Below are positions 1 to 7,683 of a DNA stretch of 41,467 bases, in pieces (the stretch's first letter is position 1; each line of letters opens with the position of its first letter). The DNA comes from an uncultured Oscillibacter sp. (GTDB lineage: Bacteria; Bacillota; Clostridia; Oscillospirales; Oscillospiraceae): positions 1 through 41,467 of the forward strand of contig CAMBKF010000016.1 in the NCBI GenBank assembly GCA_945868085.1. Direction: 5' to 3'. The notes under the pieces were generated by a model. It searched no databases, was not told the origin of the DNA, and was given only the letters and a program-made list of their open reading frames with translations. The position numbers were made by a program, and so were the translations under genes.

Positions 1-499
1 CGGACATATCCTCGGGCATCTTGGCATACAGAGCGGACTCGAACAGGATGGCCTTGCCGACGATGTCCACGCGGTCAATGTCCTTGTGGATAGCCAGGAT
101 CTTGTCGATCTTCAGCGGGGTCATGGACAGGGAGACCAGGGAAACGATCTTGTCGCCTTCCTTCAGGTCGAAGCCGGGCTTCTTCTTCAGATCCTCGCCG
201 ATGTGAGCGACGACGCCCTTAAACATACCGCCGGAACCGGTGACAGGATTCTGCTGCTTGCCGCGCTCAGCGACGATGCCCAGGATCATTTCGCCGATCT
301 TCTTCTCGTCGCCGCCGCAGGCCTCGGAGATCTGGGTGAAGGAAGCGGAGTCGATGTTCAGGGAAGTCACGTCGCAGACGATCTCGTTGGAGTAGACCTT
401 GGTCATGTCGTTGTCGACCTTCCAAGCAGCCTGGGTCAGAACGCCCTTGGGCTCGATAACGCGGTGGGTACCGTACTTGTTGCCTTTCAGTTCAGCCAT
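1..499 (-). CDS. kdd: L-erythro-3,5-diaminohexanoate dehydrogenase, partial (C-terminus beyond window)
   Basis: Third gene of the kal-kce-kdd operon. The visible 166 residues begin MAELKGNKYGTHRVIEPKG and match my memory of Kdd, the NAD-dependent enzyme that oxidatively deaminates 3,5-diaminohexanoate to 5-amino-3-oxohexanoate in lysine fermentation. The start is fixed by an AGGAGG site about 10 bases upstream. The reading frame is open to base 1, so the rest lies off the left edge and no stop is seen. It starts 43 bp after the kce stop. The cofactor-binding Rossmann core is expected downstream and cannot be checked here. The assignment rests on the N-terminal sequence plus the two unambiguous pathway neighbours. 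Confidence 0.9.
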   Translation of the reverse strand, partial: MAELKGNKYGTHRVIEPKGVLTQAAWKVDNDMTKVYSNEIVCDVTSLNIDSASFTQISEACGGDEKKIGEMILGIVAERGKQQNPVTGSGGMFKGVVAHIGEDLKKKPGFDLKEGDKIVSLVSLSMTPLKIDKILAIHKDIDRVDIVGKAILFESALYAKMPEDMS

Positions 500-542: not shown

Positions 543-1370
543 TTACTTCAGGGGCTTCAGGGACAGGATCTCGCGGGCCTCAGCGGGGGTAGCGATCTCG
601 CGGCCCAGCTCCTTGGCGATGCGGACGACCTTGGCCACCAGCTCGCCGTTGGACGCGGCCTTCTGGCCCTTGCCCAGGTAGATGTTGTCCTCAAAACCAA
701 CGCGGACGTTGCCGCCCATAGCGATGGCAGCGGCGGCCATGGTCCAGGCAGCGCGGCCTACGCCGGACACGGTCCAGGTAGCGTCAGCGGGGATCTTGCT
801 GGCGAAGAAGGCCAGGTTCTCCACGGAGGCGGGGGTGCAGCCGTGTACGCCCAGGACGAAGTTGAACTGCATGGGGTGGCCGGGGACCTCGCCCTTCTTG
901 GCCATGCCGAGGATGGTGTCGATGTGGCCCAGCTCGAAGCACTCGTACTCGGGCTTGATGCCGTTCTCGATCATGCGCTTGCCGAAGGCACGCATGGTGG
1001 GCATGGTGTTGTCGAAGATCTCATCGCCGAAGTTGCAGGTACCGCAGTCCAGAGTAGCCATCTCGGGGAACAGCTCGGTGGGCTGCAGACGCTCCTCGGG
1101 GCTCATGCCGGTGGCGCCGCCGGTGGAGGGGATCATGATGACATCGGGCAGCTCCTTGCGGATAGCGTCCATAACGACCTTGAAGCGCTCGCGATCCTGG
1201 GTGGGGGTACCGTCGTCCTCGCGGACATGGATGTGCAGGATAGCCGCACCGGCTTCGTAGGCGGACTTGGCCTCGCGGACCATTTCCTCGACGGTGTAGG
1301 GCACAGCCTCGTTCTGAGCCTTGGTGACCTCAGCGCCGCAGATAGCAGCGGTAATAATCAGCTTTTCCAT
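543..1370 (-). CDS. kce: 3-keto-5-aminohexanoate cleavage enzyme
   Basis: 275 residues, the usual size for the BKACE (DUF849) family of zinc-dependent TIM-barrel enzymes. Kce condenses 5-amino-3-oxohexanoate with acetyl-CoA and releases acetoacetate plus 3-aminobutyryl-CoA. Visible functional residues agree with the family: Glu14 in the N-terminal CGAEVT segment, the metal-binding pair His46 and His48 in ILHIHVRED, and the GFEDN motif with Glu227/Asp228 near the C-terminus. It lies between kal (12 bp upstream) and kdd (43 bp downstream) on one transcript, exactly the enzymes before and after it in the pathway. BKACE members have varied substrates, but the neighbours make the lysine-pathway role close to certain. 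Confidence 0.95.
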   Translation of the reverse strand: MEKLIITAAICGAEVTKAQNEAVPYTVEEMVREAKSAYEAGAAILHIHVREDDGTPTQDRERFKVVMDAIRKELPDVIMIPSTGGATGMSPEERLQPTELFPEMATLDCGTCNFGDEIFDNTMPTMRAFGKRMIENGIKPEYECFELGHIDTILGMAKKGEVPGHPMQFNFVLGVHGCTPASVENLAFFASKIPADATWTVSGVGRAAWTMAAAAIAMGGNVRVGFEDNIYLGKGQKAASNGELVAKVVRIAKELGREIATPAEAREILSLKPLK

Positions 1371-1382
1371 ACTTTCCGCTCC

Positions 1383-1784
1383 TTACTTCTCGATCTTGTT
1401 GCGCTGGCAATCCTTGGGGGTGACGCAGGTGCCGTGGGCGCGGCAGACCACAACGGGCTCAGCCAGCACATCGGCAGCGGAAGCGCTGATGTCGGGGCGG
1501 GACACGATGACCTTGCGGGCCTCGAACTTCATGGTGCGGGAGGTGTTGCCGATCTTCTCGATCTCGCCGTAAGCCTCGATATAATCGCCGGCATACACGG
1601 GAGCCAGGAACTCGACATTGTCATAAGCGCAGAACAGACCCTCGTCACCGTCGCACTTGATCAGCAGCTCGGTGGCGACATCGCCGAACAGATGCACCAT
1701 GTGGGCACCGTCCACCAGGTTTCCGCCGTAGTGAGCATCCTTGGCGCTCATACGCAGACGCAGCAGAGAAGTCATCTTTTCCAT
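1383..1784 (-). CDS. kal: 3-aminobutyryl-CoA ammonia-lyase
   Basis: 133 residues, a single hot-dog-fold domain typical of Kal (EC 4.3.1.14). It eliminates ammonia from 3-aminobutyryl-CoA to give crotonyl-CoA, which enters butyrate formation. The conserved segment [20 protein letters not shown] (residues about 16-35) and the later [12 protein letters not shown] are the features I recognise from the clostridial enzyme. The start follows AGGAGG in the leader with about 8 bases spacing. It is the first gene after the lysine riboswitch, so its transcription should depend on that switch together with kce and kdd. Confidence 0.93.
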
Positions 1785-1854
1785 GATAAATTCCTCCTAA
1801 AAATATTTTACAGAGTTTCTTATAACGCCGGCCGAGCGGCGCCTTTTGGGCATG

Positions 1855-1892
1855 AAAAAGGCGCTACTGGTCAAGTTTATGACCAATAGCGC
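1855..1892 (-). terminator. riboswitch-controlled intrinsic terminator (expression platform)
   Basis: Read on the minus strand, 1892-1880 (GCGCTATTGGTCA) pairs with 1873-1861 (TGACCAGTAGCGC) over 13 positions with one G-U pair and a six-base loop, followed directly by a T tract at 1859-1855. The 5' arm contains the whole 3' strand of aptamer helix P1 (1889-1881), so terminator and folded aptamer exclude each other. A further GC-rich hairpin (about 1826-1843) lies between this terminator and kal, without a T tract. Confidence 0.9.
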
Positions 1893-2057
1893 TCCATGTC
1901 TGCATAGGACATGACAGTTGTGCCGCTTACACGGCACACCCAGGAACGCGCCGCAGGACGTACGCGCACCTTCGGCAAAAGACCCCTTCGCCGCTTCCCA
2001 TCGGGCTCCCTGCTGCCCCGGAAGAGACTACCCTGTCCTCTGCGCCTCTATTGTCTG
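1881..2057 (-). ncRNA. lysine riboswitch (L-box) aptamer, predicted ON switch
   Basis: Leader RNA of kal-kce-kdd. In order on the minus strand it carries the lysine-aptamer hallmarks: ATAGAGGCGC (cf. GTAGAGGTGC in B. subtilis lysC), GGGTAGTC, an AAGGGG stretch followed by TTTTGCCGAAG, CTGGGTGTGCCGTG, AACTGTCATGTC, and GACATGGAGCGCTATTGG. Helix P1 pairs 2053-2048 with 1889-1884, extendable to 2055/1881 with one bulge. Lysine riboswitches normally switch off biosynthesis or uptake. Here the genes downstream degrade lysine, and P1 formation sequesters the terminator arm with no separate antiterminator needed, so bound lysine should allow transcription. Aptamer identity is seen in sequence; the direction of control is inferred from pairing geometry. 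Confidence 0.93.
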
Positions 2058-2080
2058 TTATATGGAATTCTGCACTTCAA

Positions 2081-2108
2081 ATTATAATACATTCGGCCAA
2101 TTTGTCAA
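2081..2108 (-). promoter_or_regulatory. sigma-A type promoter of the riboswitch-kal-kce-kdd operon
   Basis: On the minus strand a perfect TTGACA (2108-2103) is separated by 16 bases from a perfect TATAAT (2086-2081). The start of transcription would be near 2074, about 17 bases before aptamer helix P1. So the promoter is strong by sequence, and control is left to the riboswitch. Confidence 0.88.
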
Positions 2109-2241: not shown

Positions 2242-3702
2242 TCAGTAATTTTCCTCGATCAGATGCAGGATCTCCGGCTTCAGCGACAGCATGCGGCAGA
2301 TGTTCAGGGCGTCTCTGGGGCAGTCGGACTTTCCCTCCACCCGGTACAGGCCGTAGTTCATGTGCCGTGCGATGACCCGGATGCCGTCCTCCCCGCTGAC
2401 GGCCAGCTCCCGGCGGATGGCCTCGGGGTCGATGTCCCGCAGACCGATGATCTGATAGTGGGCCCGGCCGCAGTCGGCCACCTTGTCATAGTGGGTGGTG
2501 AGCAGAGAGATAGCGTTGATGCCGTTGAGATACTTCGTCACCGCCTGTACGATCACCGCGCCCTCATCGGGGTTGGTGCCCCGGGCGAACTCATCCAGCA
2601 GGAACAGGGAGTAGCCCTGCTCTGCCTGGTTCAGCGCCTTCTGGAACTGCACGATCTCCGAACCGAAGCCCGACAGGCCCGACTGGATGGACTGCATATC
2701 CTCAAACAGCATGAGCACGTTCTCAAACAGGGGCATTCTGGCCTTCTTGGCGCACACCAGGAAGCCCGCCTGCATCAGCAGCACGTTCAGGGCAACGGTT
2801 TTCATGGCCACGCTCTTGCCGCCCATGTTGGCGCCGGTGATGACCGTAGCGCCCCGGTCCAGAGCAATGGACACCGGCACAAAGCTGCGGCCCTGCTCGC
2901 TCAGCAGGTCGCACAGTTCCGGATTCATCATGTCCGTCAGCTCCAGGGGACCGTCGGTGATCTCCGGCATTACGCCGCCGTAGCGCACGGCAAACATGGC
3001 CTTCTGAATGATGAAATCCAGGCGGCCTGCGCTCTCCGCGTCCTCCAGCATAGCCTCCGCCAGGGGTGCCAGGCGCGCGCCCATGTCCCGGCGGATCTTT
3101 GTCTCCTCGCTCTCCTCCTCGGCGCAGATCTGCGTGCGCCGCAGGCGCAGCTCATCCTTTTCCGCGTCGGTCCCGGCCTCGTGGAGCTTCTCCTCCAGCT
3201 CCTTCTTGGTCCGGCGGACCTGGCGGAGCTTCTCCGTCATGCTGTCAGGGATATAAAAGCCCCGGGACCGGGTGTTGTCCGGGTCCAGGATGGCCAGAGC
3301 GGGCTTGGGATCGTGGAAGGTCAGCTCCCGCAGGGGTGCCGCCTCGCTCATCTGCCCGTACAGGGGCAGCAGGCTCTCCAGCCGCTGCAGATAGCCCTTG
3401 ATCTCAAACAGCTCCACATGGTCCGGCACCTCACCGTCCCGGCAGCGGCGGATGGAGTTGCGGATGTCCTTCATCTGGCACAGCAGGATGCAGATCTTGT
3501 CATACACGCCCTTGAGCTGGTCGGCGTGGTCCGCCGCCTGCTGCACGTTATAAAGCTCCGTCTCCAGCTCCGCCCGCTCCGCCGGGGTATAGTACCGCAG
3601 GCGGCGGATCTTCTCCTGGCCGAAGGGACTGCACCCGTGGAGGGTCTCCAGGGCGTACTGCAGGCCGATCTGCTGCTTCTCCTCAAACCGAATGGAAATC
3701 AT
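2242..3702 (-). CDS. kamC: MutS-like ATPase, lysine 5,6-aminomutase reactivase subunit
   Basis: 486 residues. The C-terminal half is a MutS-family ABC-type ATPase: Walker A GANMGGKS at residues about 290-297, Walker B SLFLLDEF with the following ARGTNPDEG loop, and a TTHYD switch motif. The DNA-mismatch-recognition domains of true MutS are absent; the N-terminal half is helical and charged. A MutS-like protein with this build sits in clostridial lysine-fermentation clusters and is annotated as KamC, proposed to reactivate the adenosylcobalamin-dependent lysine 5,6-aminomutase with KamB. It overlaps the kamB stop by 4 bp, consistent with translational coupling. The reactivase role is family knowledge, not visible directly. 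Confidence 0.88.
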   Translation of the reverse strand: MISIRFEEKQQIGLQYALETLHGCSPFGQEKIRRLRYYTPAERAELETELYNVQQAADHADQLKGVYDKICILLCQMKDIRNSIRRCRDGEVPDHVELFEIKGYLQRLESLLPLYGQMSEAAPLRELTFHDPKPALAILDPDNTRSRGFYIPDSMTEKLRQVRRTKKELEEKLHEAGTDAEKDELRLRRTQICAEEESEETKIRRDMGARLAPLAEAMLEDAESAGRLDFIIQKAMFAVRYGGVMPEITDGPLELTDMMNPELCDLLSEQGRSFVPVSIALDRGATVITGANMGGKSVAMKTVALNVLLMQAGFLVCAKKARMPLFENVLMLFEDMQSIQSGLSGFGSEIVQFQKALNQAEQGYSLFLLDEFARGTNPDEGAVIVQAVTKYLNGINAISLLTTHYDKVADCGRAHYQIIGLRDIDPEAIRRELAVSGEDGIRVIARHMNYGLYRVEGKSDCPRDALNICRMLSLKPEILHLIEENY

Positions 3703-4634
3703 GCCAGCTCCTCCTTCACATTGATGACCGGCACCTTCACGCTCTGGCGCATCCGGTCGATAAACACGTCCTTGTCAAACTTCCACCCGTAGGCCGACAC
3801 GGGGTTCACCGTGACGCACAGGGTCCTGGCGGCATCCTTGGTCTGCAGGGCCACCTCCCGCACCGCCAGCTTATCCAGGGTGTCGGGCTTCAGGAGCACC
3901 TTGCTGGGGTCGGCCACCACCAGGCGGCCTCCGCGCAGCAGGCCGCTGCGCAGCAGCGGCACCACCATGCTGTCCGTCAGGGCCCCGGGGATGTACGCCT
4001 CCCCGTACTCCTTCAGGCACTTCTCCAGGCCCTCCGTGGCCTCCGGCGGCAGGGTCTCCGCCTTGGGCAGATCCATGAGCCGACAGAAGTTGACCGTGTC
4101 CTCGATGACCTTGTCCATGCTCATGTTATAAGACGCGCCGGTACACAGCACGATGCCGTCGGCCACGTTCCGGGCCCCCAGGGATTTGCGGCCCAGTGCG
4201 CCGTCGATGATGGACTGGGTGGCCCCCAGCTCAAAAAATGTCCTGGATACCTCTTTCAGCTGGGCCGTGATGGACGGGCCAGCCAGCTGCACATAGCCGT
4301 CGCTGCGGGCGCGCATGATGATCACCTCGCCCAGGGGCGTTGGGATGCCGGTGGTGACCAGGATCTCCTGGGTCACGTCGCCCAGGCGCAGCATATCCTT
4401 GGCGGTGGCGATGAGGGTGCCAGCCGGAACAAAGATGCTGGGCTTTTCCGTGCCGGTGACCACGTCGGTGCTCTCGCCGTCCCGGCCGATGGAGGTCAGG
4501 CCCAGGACCTGCTGGCGGCCCGTGTGGGCCAAAAGCCAGTTGAGCATGGTAGTCTTGCCGGCGTTTTTGCACATACCCACAATGGACATGCTCTGCACCT
4601 GCTGCAGCTGCCGGACCAATTCTGCTGTTGTCAT
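3699..4634 (-). CDS. kamB: lysine 5,6-aminomutase reactivase subunit, P-loop protein
   Basis: 311 residues with an N-terminal nucleotide-binding loop, GMCKNAGKTT at residues 20-29, and no other domain I can name. Position directly before and overlapping the MutS-like kamC, beside kal-kce-kdd, matches the kamB-kamC pair of Clostridium-type lysine fermenters. The likely role is helping to exchange damaged cobalamin on the aminomutase, using ATP or GTP. The start follows GGAAGGAGAG closely. The aminomutase genes themselves (kamD, kamE) are not in the window and may lie beyond the left edge. Confidence 0.85.
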   Translation of the reverse strand: MTTAELVRQLQQVQSMSIVGMCKNAGKTTMLNWLLAHTGRQQVLGLTSIGRDGESTDVVTGTEKPSIFVPAGTLIATAKDMLRLGDVTQEILVTTGIPTPLGEVIIMRARSDGYVQLAGPSITAQLKEVSRTFFELGATQSIIDGALGRKSLGARNVADGIVLCTGASYNMSMDKVIEDTVNFCRLMDLPKAETLPPEATEGLEKCLKEYGEAYIPGALTDSMVVPLLRSGLLRGGRLVVADPSKVLLKPDTLDKLAVREVALQTKDAARTLCVTVNPVSAYGWKFDKDVFIDRMRQSVKVPVINVKEELA

Positions 4635-5532: not shown

Positions 5533-7368
<1,836 letters not shown>

Positions 7369-7440: not shown

Positions 7441-7590
7441 TTCCTGTCCGGCCGCAGCTTCTCTGTTTTGCGGTCGCCCGCATATTTGCCCGCTGCGTGC
7501 GCACCCGAACGGTGCGGGAGAGCTTCCGCCGAAATCTTCGATACTCTCTCCTCCTCGTCGTCCCGCCATAGGCGGGCGCTGGCGCTTATG
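7441..7590 (-). ncRNA. glmS self-cleaving ribozyme (glucosamine-6-phosphate sensing)
   Basis: On the minus strand the leader of glmS shows the ribozyme consensus in order: AAGCGCCAG, a variable P2 hairpin (CGCCCGCC / GGCGGG), GACGAGGAGG, AGAGTATCGAAGATTTCGG, CGGAAGCTCTCCCG, a P3a-type hairpin, then CGACCGCAAAACAGAGAAG and CCGGACAGGAA closing the P4 region. Cleavage is expected just 5' of the G at 7585. A short palindrome (ATGGGGCAGGCCCCAT) precedes the cleavage site. Known mechanism: glucosamine-6-phosphate is the cofactor for cleavage and the cleaved mRNA is degraded. An open frame crosses this region but is incidental. Confidence 0.95.
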
Positions 7591-7683
7591 ATGGGGCCTG
7601 CCCCATAGCCTCCTTTCTTCTCTGTGACTTTTTGTATATTTCTACCTCTAACGGCAGATACTGCCGCAAAGGAGGTATACCCT

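Follow-up and report, generated by a model that had tools for sequence, protein, structure and literature searches.

The window, the whole stretch of DNA that was analysed, comprises 41,467 nucleotides of contig CAMBKF010000016.1 from an uncultured Oscillibacter sp. and starts at contig base 1. On its minus strand, a promoter, a lysine riboswitch aptamer and an intrinsic terminator precede three genes of lysine fermentation. The features of the locus are as follows.

Positions 2242-4634, minus strand: kamC and kamB, reactivase genes of lysine 5,6-aminomutase, an upstream and separate unit without a riboswitch.
Positions 2081 to 2108, minus strand: sigma-70 type promoter, TTGACA-16-TATAAT, 12 of 12 consensus positions.
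Positions 1879 to 2058, minus strand: lysine riboswitch aptamer (RF00168), helices P1-P5, full-length model match at 94.0 bits.
Positions 2048 to 2055, minus strand: P1 5′ strand (core 2053-2048), from the covariance-model alignment, with the outer two pairs placed by eye.
Positions 1881 to 1889, minus strand: P1 3′ strand, the shared switch strand, which pairs with 2055-2048 or with the terminator 3′ arm.
Positions 1861 to 1892, minus strand: intrinsic terminator hairpin, its 5′ arm holding J5/1 residues and the P1 3′ strand; 13 pairs, loop of 6, -22.5 kcal/mol.
Positions 1855 to 1859, minus strand: terminator U-tract (CTTTTT directly after the stem).
Positions 1839 to 1864, minus strand: hairpin over the U-tract (GCGCCTTTT/AAAAGGCGC), which can form only after read-through; -12.9 kcal/mol for 1866-1838; putative role.
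Positions 1793 to 1798, minus strand: kal ribosome-binding site AGGAGG, read from the sequence and outside both alternative helices.
Positions 1383 to 1784, minus strand: kal, 3-aminobutyryl-CoA ammonia lyase (NF052388, 194.9 bits, cut-off 160).
Positions 543 to 1370, minus strand: kce, 3-keto-5-aminohexanoate cleavage enzyme (NF052387, 418.9 bits, cut-off 382).
Positions 2 to 499, minus strand: kdd, L-erythro-3,5-diaminohexanoate dehydrogenase, truncated at the contig end (NF052381, 219.9 bits, cut-off 200).

The names kal, kce and kdd rest on NCBIfam equivalogs, all three over their cut-offs, which bears out the proposal of the first-pass annotation that the genes behind the aptamer degrade lysine. 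The kamC/kamB unit appears to be closed off by a hairpin with a T-tract around 2203-2180, as judged by eye. In a relative (G125), the operon behind the riboswitch runs through kdd, kamA, kamD, kamE and a CoA-transferase pair. Elsewhere in the window, an ordinary glmS ribozyme (RF00234, 66.6 bits) lies at 7443-7597 on the minus strand, upstream of the open frame 5533-7368, which resembles glmS.

A covariance-model search, which the first-pass annotation had proposed as a check, placed RF00168 at 2058-1879 on the minus strand with 94.0 bits and an E value of 9.4e-24, well over the gathering score of 30. Model positions 1-182 were matched completely, from P1 to P5. The alignment contained the five-helix junction and the conserved core (UAGAGG, GCCGAA, CUGG, CUGUCA and GGAGnGCUA), with a few pairs marked as non-standard; the hallmarks of the L-box are thus all there, as had been claimed. 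A second RF00168 match was not found in the window's own genome, which is 84.5% complete. The promoter was likewise correctly described as fully consensus, and promoter-like -35 and -10 boxes were seen by eye before the aptamer in most of the closest relatives inspected.

In the alignment, the P1 core pairs 2053-2048 with 1889-1884; by eye, two outer pairs join 2055-2054 to 1882-1881 across a bulged G1883. The terminator pairs 1892-1880 with 1873-1861, and its 5′ arm takes in the J5/1 residues 1892-1890 as well as the P1 3′ strand. The earlier statement that this strand (1889-1881) lies wholly within the terminator arm (1892-1880) is therefore upheld, by the alignment for 1889-1884 and by eye for the remainder. 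Because the P1 3′ strand is inside the terminator 5′ arm, the two helices exclude each other. No second terminator and no terminator-antiterminator pair was found between the aptamer and kal, where the minus strand carries one terminator; since the P1 strand is part of this sole terminator, lysine binding should block termination. In the classical OFF design of the L-box the terminator stands apart from P1 and an antiterminator uses the P1 3′ strand, an arrangement that the window leader lacks. What it has is the arrangement of a direct ON switch, with the P1 3′ strand inside the terminator 5′ arm. One terminator-like site was found in the window leader against 0.8 expected in shuffled sequences, which is not significant alone, and the weight of the terminator call lies in its register with P1 and its conservation, not in the site by itself.

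The sequence just past the U-tract is complementary both to the U-tract and to the terminator 3′ arm (1839-1864), and under a loose rule such U-tract pairing occurred in 18 of the 31 leaders with P1-terminator overlap described below. The hairpin 1864-1839 may keep the terminator open in read-through mRNA. It was rejected as an antiterminator because it is transcribed too late, after the U-tract.

Folding of the growing RNA without ligand put the P1 pair probability at 0.68-0.90 for RNA 3′ ends between 1884 and 1870, and the terminator probability at 0.58 at 1868, 0.976 from 1866 and 0.998 from 1862. The predicted decision window is short, as a transcriptional switch needs. Once the RNA reaches 1854, the P1 form is 15.5 kcal/mol worse than the terminator form, in folding energies that leave out tertiary contacts. 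Other members of the lysine riboswitch class have a Kd of about 1 micromolar, and with this value assumed, lysine binding was computed to be worth 4-6 kcal/mol at 1-10 mM. Equilibrium control was rejected, as the advantage of the terminator is far larger than anything that lysine binding could offset. Since the energy gap exceeds this payment, the ON state is not explicable at equilibrium, and a decision made during transcription can explain it. From the folding numbers we infer kinetic control; the switch would work only if its folding is kinetically controlled.

In order to place the leader among its relatives, loci with kal were collected. Kal (NF052388) exceeded its cut-off 11 times in 150 genomes of the family, 78 times in 398 of the phylum and 23 times in 391 of the class, and of at least 581 loci in named records the 80 closest to the query were fetched. 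By position matching, RF00168 lay directly upstream of kal in 19 of these 80 named loci; the same held in 5 of the 11 family genomes over cut-off, the window counted, where kal was taken with 1.5 kb on each side, and in further phylum and class genomes. Many kal genes had no RF00168 nearby (for example 0 of 20 loci in one set examined), and weak members may have escaped the riboswitch searches, whose filters were stricter whenever more than 40 genomes were scanned. The set of 33 kal-linked aptamers comprised the window, the 19 named loci, L040, L049, L032, L174, L175, L176, L171, the tandem pairs L172 and L173, L255 and L249. For L171 kal lies about 4 kb downstream, and for the two tandem pairs about 6 kb; L038 was left out because it is on the same contig as L063. 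The 111 control aptamers (30 plus L177, 60 and 20) have no kal link as judged from positions only, and 90 of them came from one family.

A leader was scored as overlapping when at least 4 of the 6 P1 positions fell within the 5′ arm of a hairpin followed by a U-tract, the classifier taking the best 3 or 4 hairpins per leader. Of the 33 kal-linked aptamers, 31 showed such an overlap, the hairpin energies spanning -12.6 to -35.2, in related rows whose counts are not independent. Among the controls, 8 of 111 were flagged at any energy and 2 (L233 and L232) at E <= -12, a cut set after the data had been seen; the other six (C_L006, C_L021, L212, L226, L278 and L287) were flagged only at weaker energies. 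Both L233 and L232 also carry a separate terminator. The flagged hairpin of L233 overlaps, by eye, the 5′ arm of the further terminator and reads as an antiterminator, and L232 is ambiguous. The two kal-linked exceptions, L255 (G712) and L249 (G982), have a terminator that stands apart from P1, and inspection by eye shows a hairpin that takes up their P1 3′ strand. They perhaps represent a second, indirect ON design, and for L255 such a route can be drawn from the sequence. Five genomes (G179, G220, G401, G459 and G056) contain both kal-linked and control aptamers, so that in these the difference follows the gene and not the genome.

Across the 31 direct leaders the inner P1 positions are nearly invariant. 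At the sixth position all four bases occur as the shared base. There, 21 of 31 leaders keep the P1 pair as well as the terminator pair, with five base combinations in which G, C or T is shared, and 0 of the 3 leaders with A do so; at the fifth position both pairs hold in 24 of 31. By the pairing rule, P1 is weak or broken early in several leaders, among them L176, L122, L175, L172 and L173. The P1 5′ strand, the shared strand and the terminator 3′ arm thus vary in concert. Of 124 aptamers offered, one was dropped under a rule against N or duplicates; a tree of the remaining 123 was built from all columns, and a second tree of 143 rows from an alignment trimmed of the P1 and 3′ end regions with 20 controls added. 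All 33 kal-linked rows fell on one side of a branch in the former and 32 of 33 grouped in the latter, each with 100/99 support and an unsettled bootstrap; L122 was marked as a long branch. These trees suggest that the kal-linked aptamers share a single origin, which held with all columns, and one of the 33 rows left the group after trimming and the addition of the 20 controls.

Taken together, the anatomy, the gene context, the folding and the comparison support the view, to which we assign a probability of roughly 0.9, that the window's lysine riboswitch turns the lysine-fermentation operon ON at transcription, with predicted lysine binding, read-through and kinetic control. It is proposed that RNA polymerase starts at the consensus promoter and that the aptamer folds while emerging. 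With lysine bound, P1 and J5/1 would be held in the aptamer and the strand 1892-1881 would not be free; the terminator 1892-1861 could then not form before polymerase passes the U-tract, and kal-kce-kdd would be transcribed. Without lysine, the terminator hairpin would capture the strand and transcription would stop near 1855. A search for a separate antiterminator found none. This competition between P1 and the terminator had been predicted in the first-pass annotation, and the overlap in 31 of 33 kal-linked leaders against 2 of 111 controls at E <= -12 is added to its support.

The opposite sign would be that of an ordinary OFF lysine riboswitch, in which lysine causes termination and an antiterminator forms in its absence. 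OFF function has been demonstrated for the lysine riboswitches of B. subtilis and E. coli, according to the portions of the literature available, and 109 of 111 control leaders were unflagged at E <= -12, nearly all of them with a hairpin and U-tract elsewhere, as is usual for OFF switches. In the window leader, however, the sole terminator found between the aptamer and kal uses the P1 3′ strand, so that a lysine-stabilised P1 must oppose it, and the sole alternative pairing found for the terminator 3′ arm (1864-1839) is transcribed after the U-tract, too late to avert termination. The operon, moreover, degrades lysine. OFF logic was rejected for this leader, as neither an antiterminator nor a second terminator was found, and we regard it as very improbable.

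Control could instead be exerted mainly on translation or mRNA stability, with the aptamer altering access to the kal ribosome-binding site or to an RNase, for which E. coli lysC, controlled at translation and RNA decay, sets a precedent in the available part of PMC5584792. Against this, about 57 nt separate the U-tract from the ribosome-binding site (1798-1793), which belongs to neither of the alternative helices, and the leader has a strong hairpin with a U-tract that is conserved across 31 of 33 leaders; this explanation has no better a chance than OFF control. The least likely explanation, which we rate as barely credible, is that of a relic, in which the aptamer would be degenerate or respond to a different ligand, the hairpin serving just as a constitutive attenuator. 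It draws on the fact that the ligand is assigned from the family, and it is opposed by the full-length model match at 94 bits with conserved junctions, by the linked changes of P1 and terminator, and by the retention of the element in many lineages with the same gene context.

Characterised lysine riboswitches mostly turn biosynthesis or import off. The window element shares with this class (RF00168, the L-box or LYS element) the full aptamer architecture and core at 94 bits, but precedes degradation genes and is predicted to be ON. An ON lysine riboswitch is not a new idea, and both kal/kce-linked examples and terminator burial are already in print. Barrick and Breaker (2007, PMC2258182), citing Rodionov 2003, state in the portion available that certain lysine riboswitches have ON logic and bury pieces of terminator stems. 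In the direct ON transcription riboswitches of that source (certain glycine, adenine and lysine ones), part of the terminator is likewise buried by a pairing that the ligand stabilises, without a separate antiterminator; the window element differs from them in nothing essential, and its two-strand relatives, described below, repeat the switch strand. In the available part of Mukherjee 2017 (PMC5584792), lysine riboswitches upstream of kal/kce in C. sticklandii and of kal in F. nucleatum are called positively regulated, a statement that rests there on a cited review (Serganov and Patel 2009), and the references include the title of an engineered lysine-ON riboswitch. The riboswitches of C. sticklandii, F. 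nucleatum and Thermoanaerobacter in that source share the gene context of the window element and are stated to be positively regulated, as is predicted for it, a comparison made by description; its main text, as far as available, does not use the word "terminator", and anatomy, contrast with controls and lineage are what is added here. Of the earlier claim of a direct two-state ON switch unlike the usual OFF design, the mutual exclusion of P1 and terminator without an antiterminator stood, and the distinctiveness did not, since the available portions of PMC2258182 and PMC5584792 already describe, respectively, ON lysine riboswitches with buried terminator pieces and kal/kce-linked ones. A literature search mostly by title found no natural catabolic lysine riboswitches beyond those of PMC5584792; the consulted parts of PMC3766115 and PMC9337991 contained nothing on them, and the word "riboswitch" was absent from that of the C. 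sticklandii genome paper (PMC3091704).

Some relatives outside the window carry the switch strand twice. In 7 of the 33 kal-linked leaders, a second copy of the aptamer 3′ end (TGnnGnGCTRT) lies 34-46 nt past the aptamer, a motif found at 0.0012 per shuffled region and in 0 of 111 controls. The doubled motif had 13 matches in 400 family genomes, and the control columns for the backwards pattern had 0. Eleven of the 13 lie between an RF00168 aptamer and kce-kdd or kal-kce, the genes being recognised by eye from likeness to the window proteins, and two of these leaders repeat L049 and L084; the other 2 lack an RF00168 match and seem to fall within coding sequence. The first, P1-overlapping terminator is present in all 11, and the pattern partly selects for it. 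A set of 16 two-strand leaders was assembled (L293-L303, L032, L068, L103, L116 and L172), and in 13 of them a second terminator has strand 2 within its 5′ arm (exceptions L068, L116 and L303). The form was found in 0 of 10 genomes of the window's own genus.

Strand 2 pairs better with the P5 and P1 of its own aptamer than with those of other leaders. Over 12 non-redundant leaders, strand 2 formed 66 pairs with P5, where shuffling gave 50.4 on average and reached that number in 0 of 100,000 rounds, and P1 plus P5 pairs numbered 137 against 119.1 (fraction 2e-05); a test on 7 leaders gave 0.24% of 5040 permutations, all statistics being weakened by related rows. Compared with strand 1, strand 2 gave a longer P5 in 12 of 16 leaders, one of equal length in 2 and a shorter one in 2, and P1 was longer with strand 1 in most of the 16. 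By constrained folding of three leaders, the aptamer on strand 2 with terminator 1 behind it was 4-14 kcal/mol better than the aptamer on strand 1 with terminator 2, and 6-13 kcal/mol worse than both terminators together.

These features suggest a relay with two checkpoints, in which one aptamer body would use two interchangeable 3′ strands (P5 3′, J5/1 and P1 3′), mostly with one terminator each, and lysine would be sampled twice; we offer this tentatively, at slightly less than even odds. With lysine, the aptamer would first hold strand 1 and terminator 1 would fail. After a handover to strand 2, where P5 is usually longer, terminator 1 would form harmlessly behind polymerase and terminator 2 would be blocked. 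Tandem riboswitches, as described in the available part of PMC2258182, likewise place more than one decision in series, as do the two-aptamer leaders of G459 and G502 and the two-strand leaders, but the latter have one aptamer body and two candidate 3′ strands. Two complete lysine aptamers stand in tandem in L172 (G459:C1:3265312-3265756) and L173 (G502:C117:14293-14704), each with its own P1-overlapping terminator and ahead of lysine fermentation genes; in G459, kdd is by NCBIfam the first gene behind them, and a further switch strand follows the aptamers. A narrow, title-level literature search found no description of the two-strand form, on which novelty cannot be claimed.

Induction of the pathway has been reported in a relative of another genus, which speaks indirectly for the ON reading. 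In Intestinimonas AF211, lysine-pathway proteins were about 10-fold induced on lysine compared with glucose plus acetate, and Kal itself was undetected in the proteome (Bui et al. 2015, PMC4697335); the word "riboswitch" does not occur in the available portion of that text. The Intestinimonas MAG L084, a different genome from strain AF211, has a P1-overlap leader before kal, with the same aptamer as G1203. The switch proposed here would provide a sequence-level mechanism by which gut and rumen bacteria turn on lysine fermentation, consistent with the induction that the consulted part of PMC4697335 reports for AF211. It is suggested that the catabolic lysine aptamers form a separate lineage with a conserved ON platform, in which case the regulatory sign would be readable from sequence. 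If the relay is true, the two-strand relatives would represent riboswitches in which one aptamer tests for its ligand at two points, and this would be expected to reduce leak and make the response sharper, much as kinetic proofreading does.
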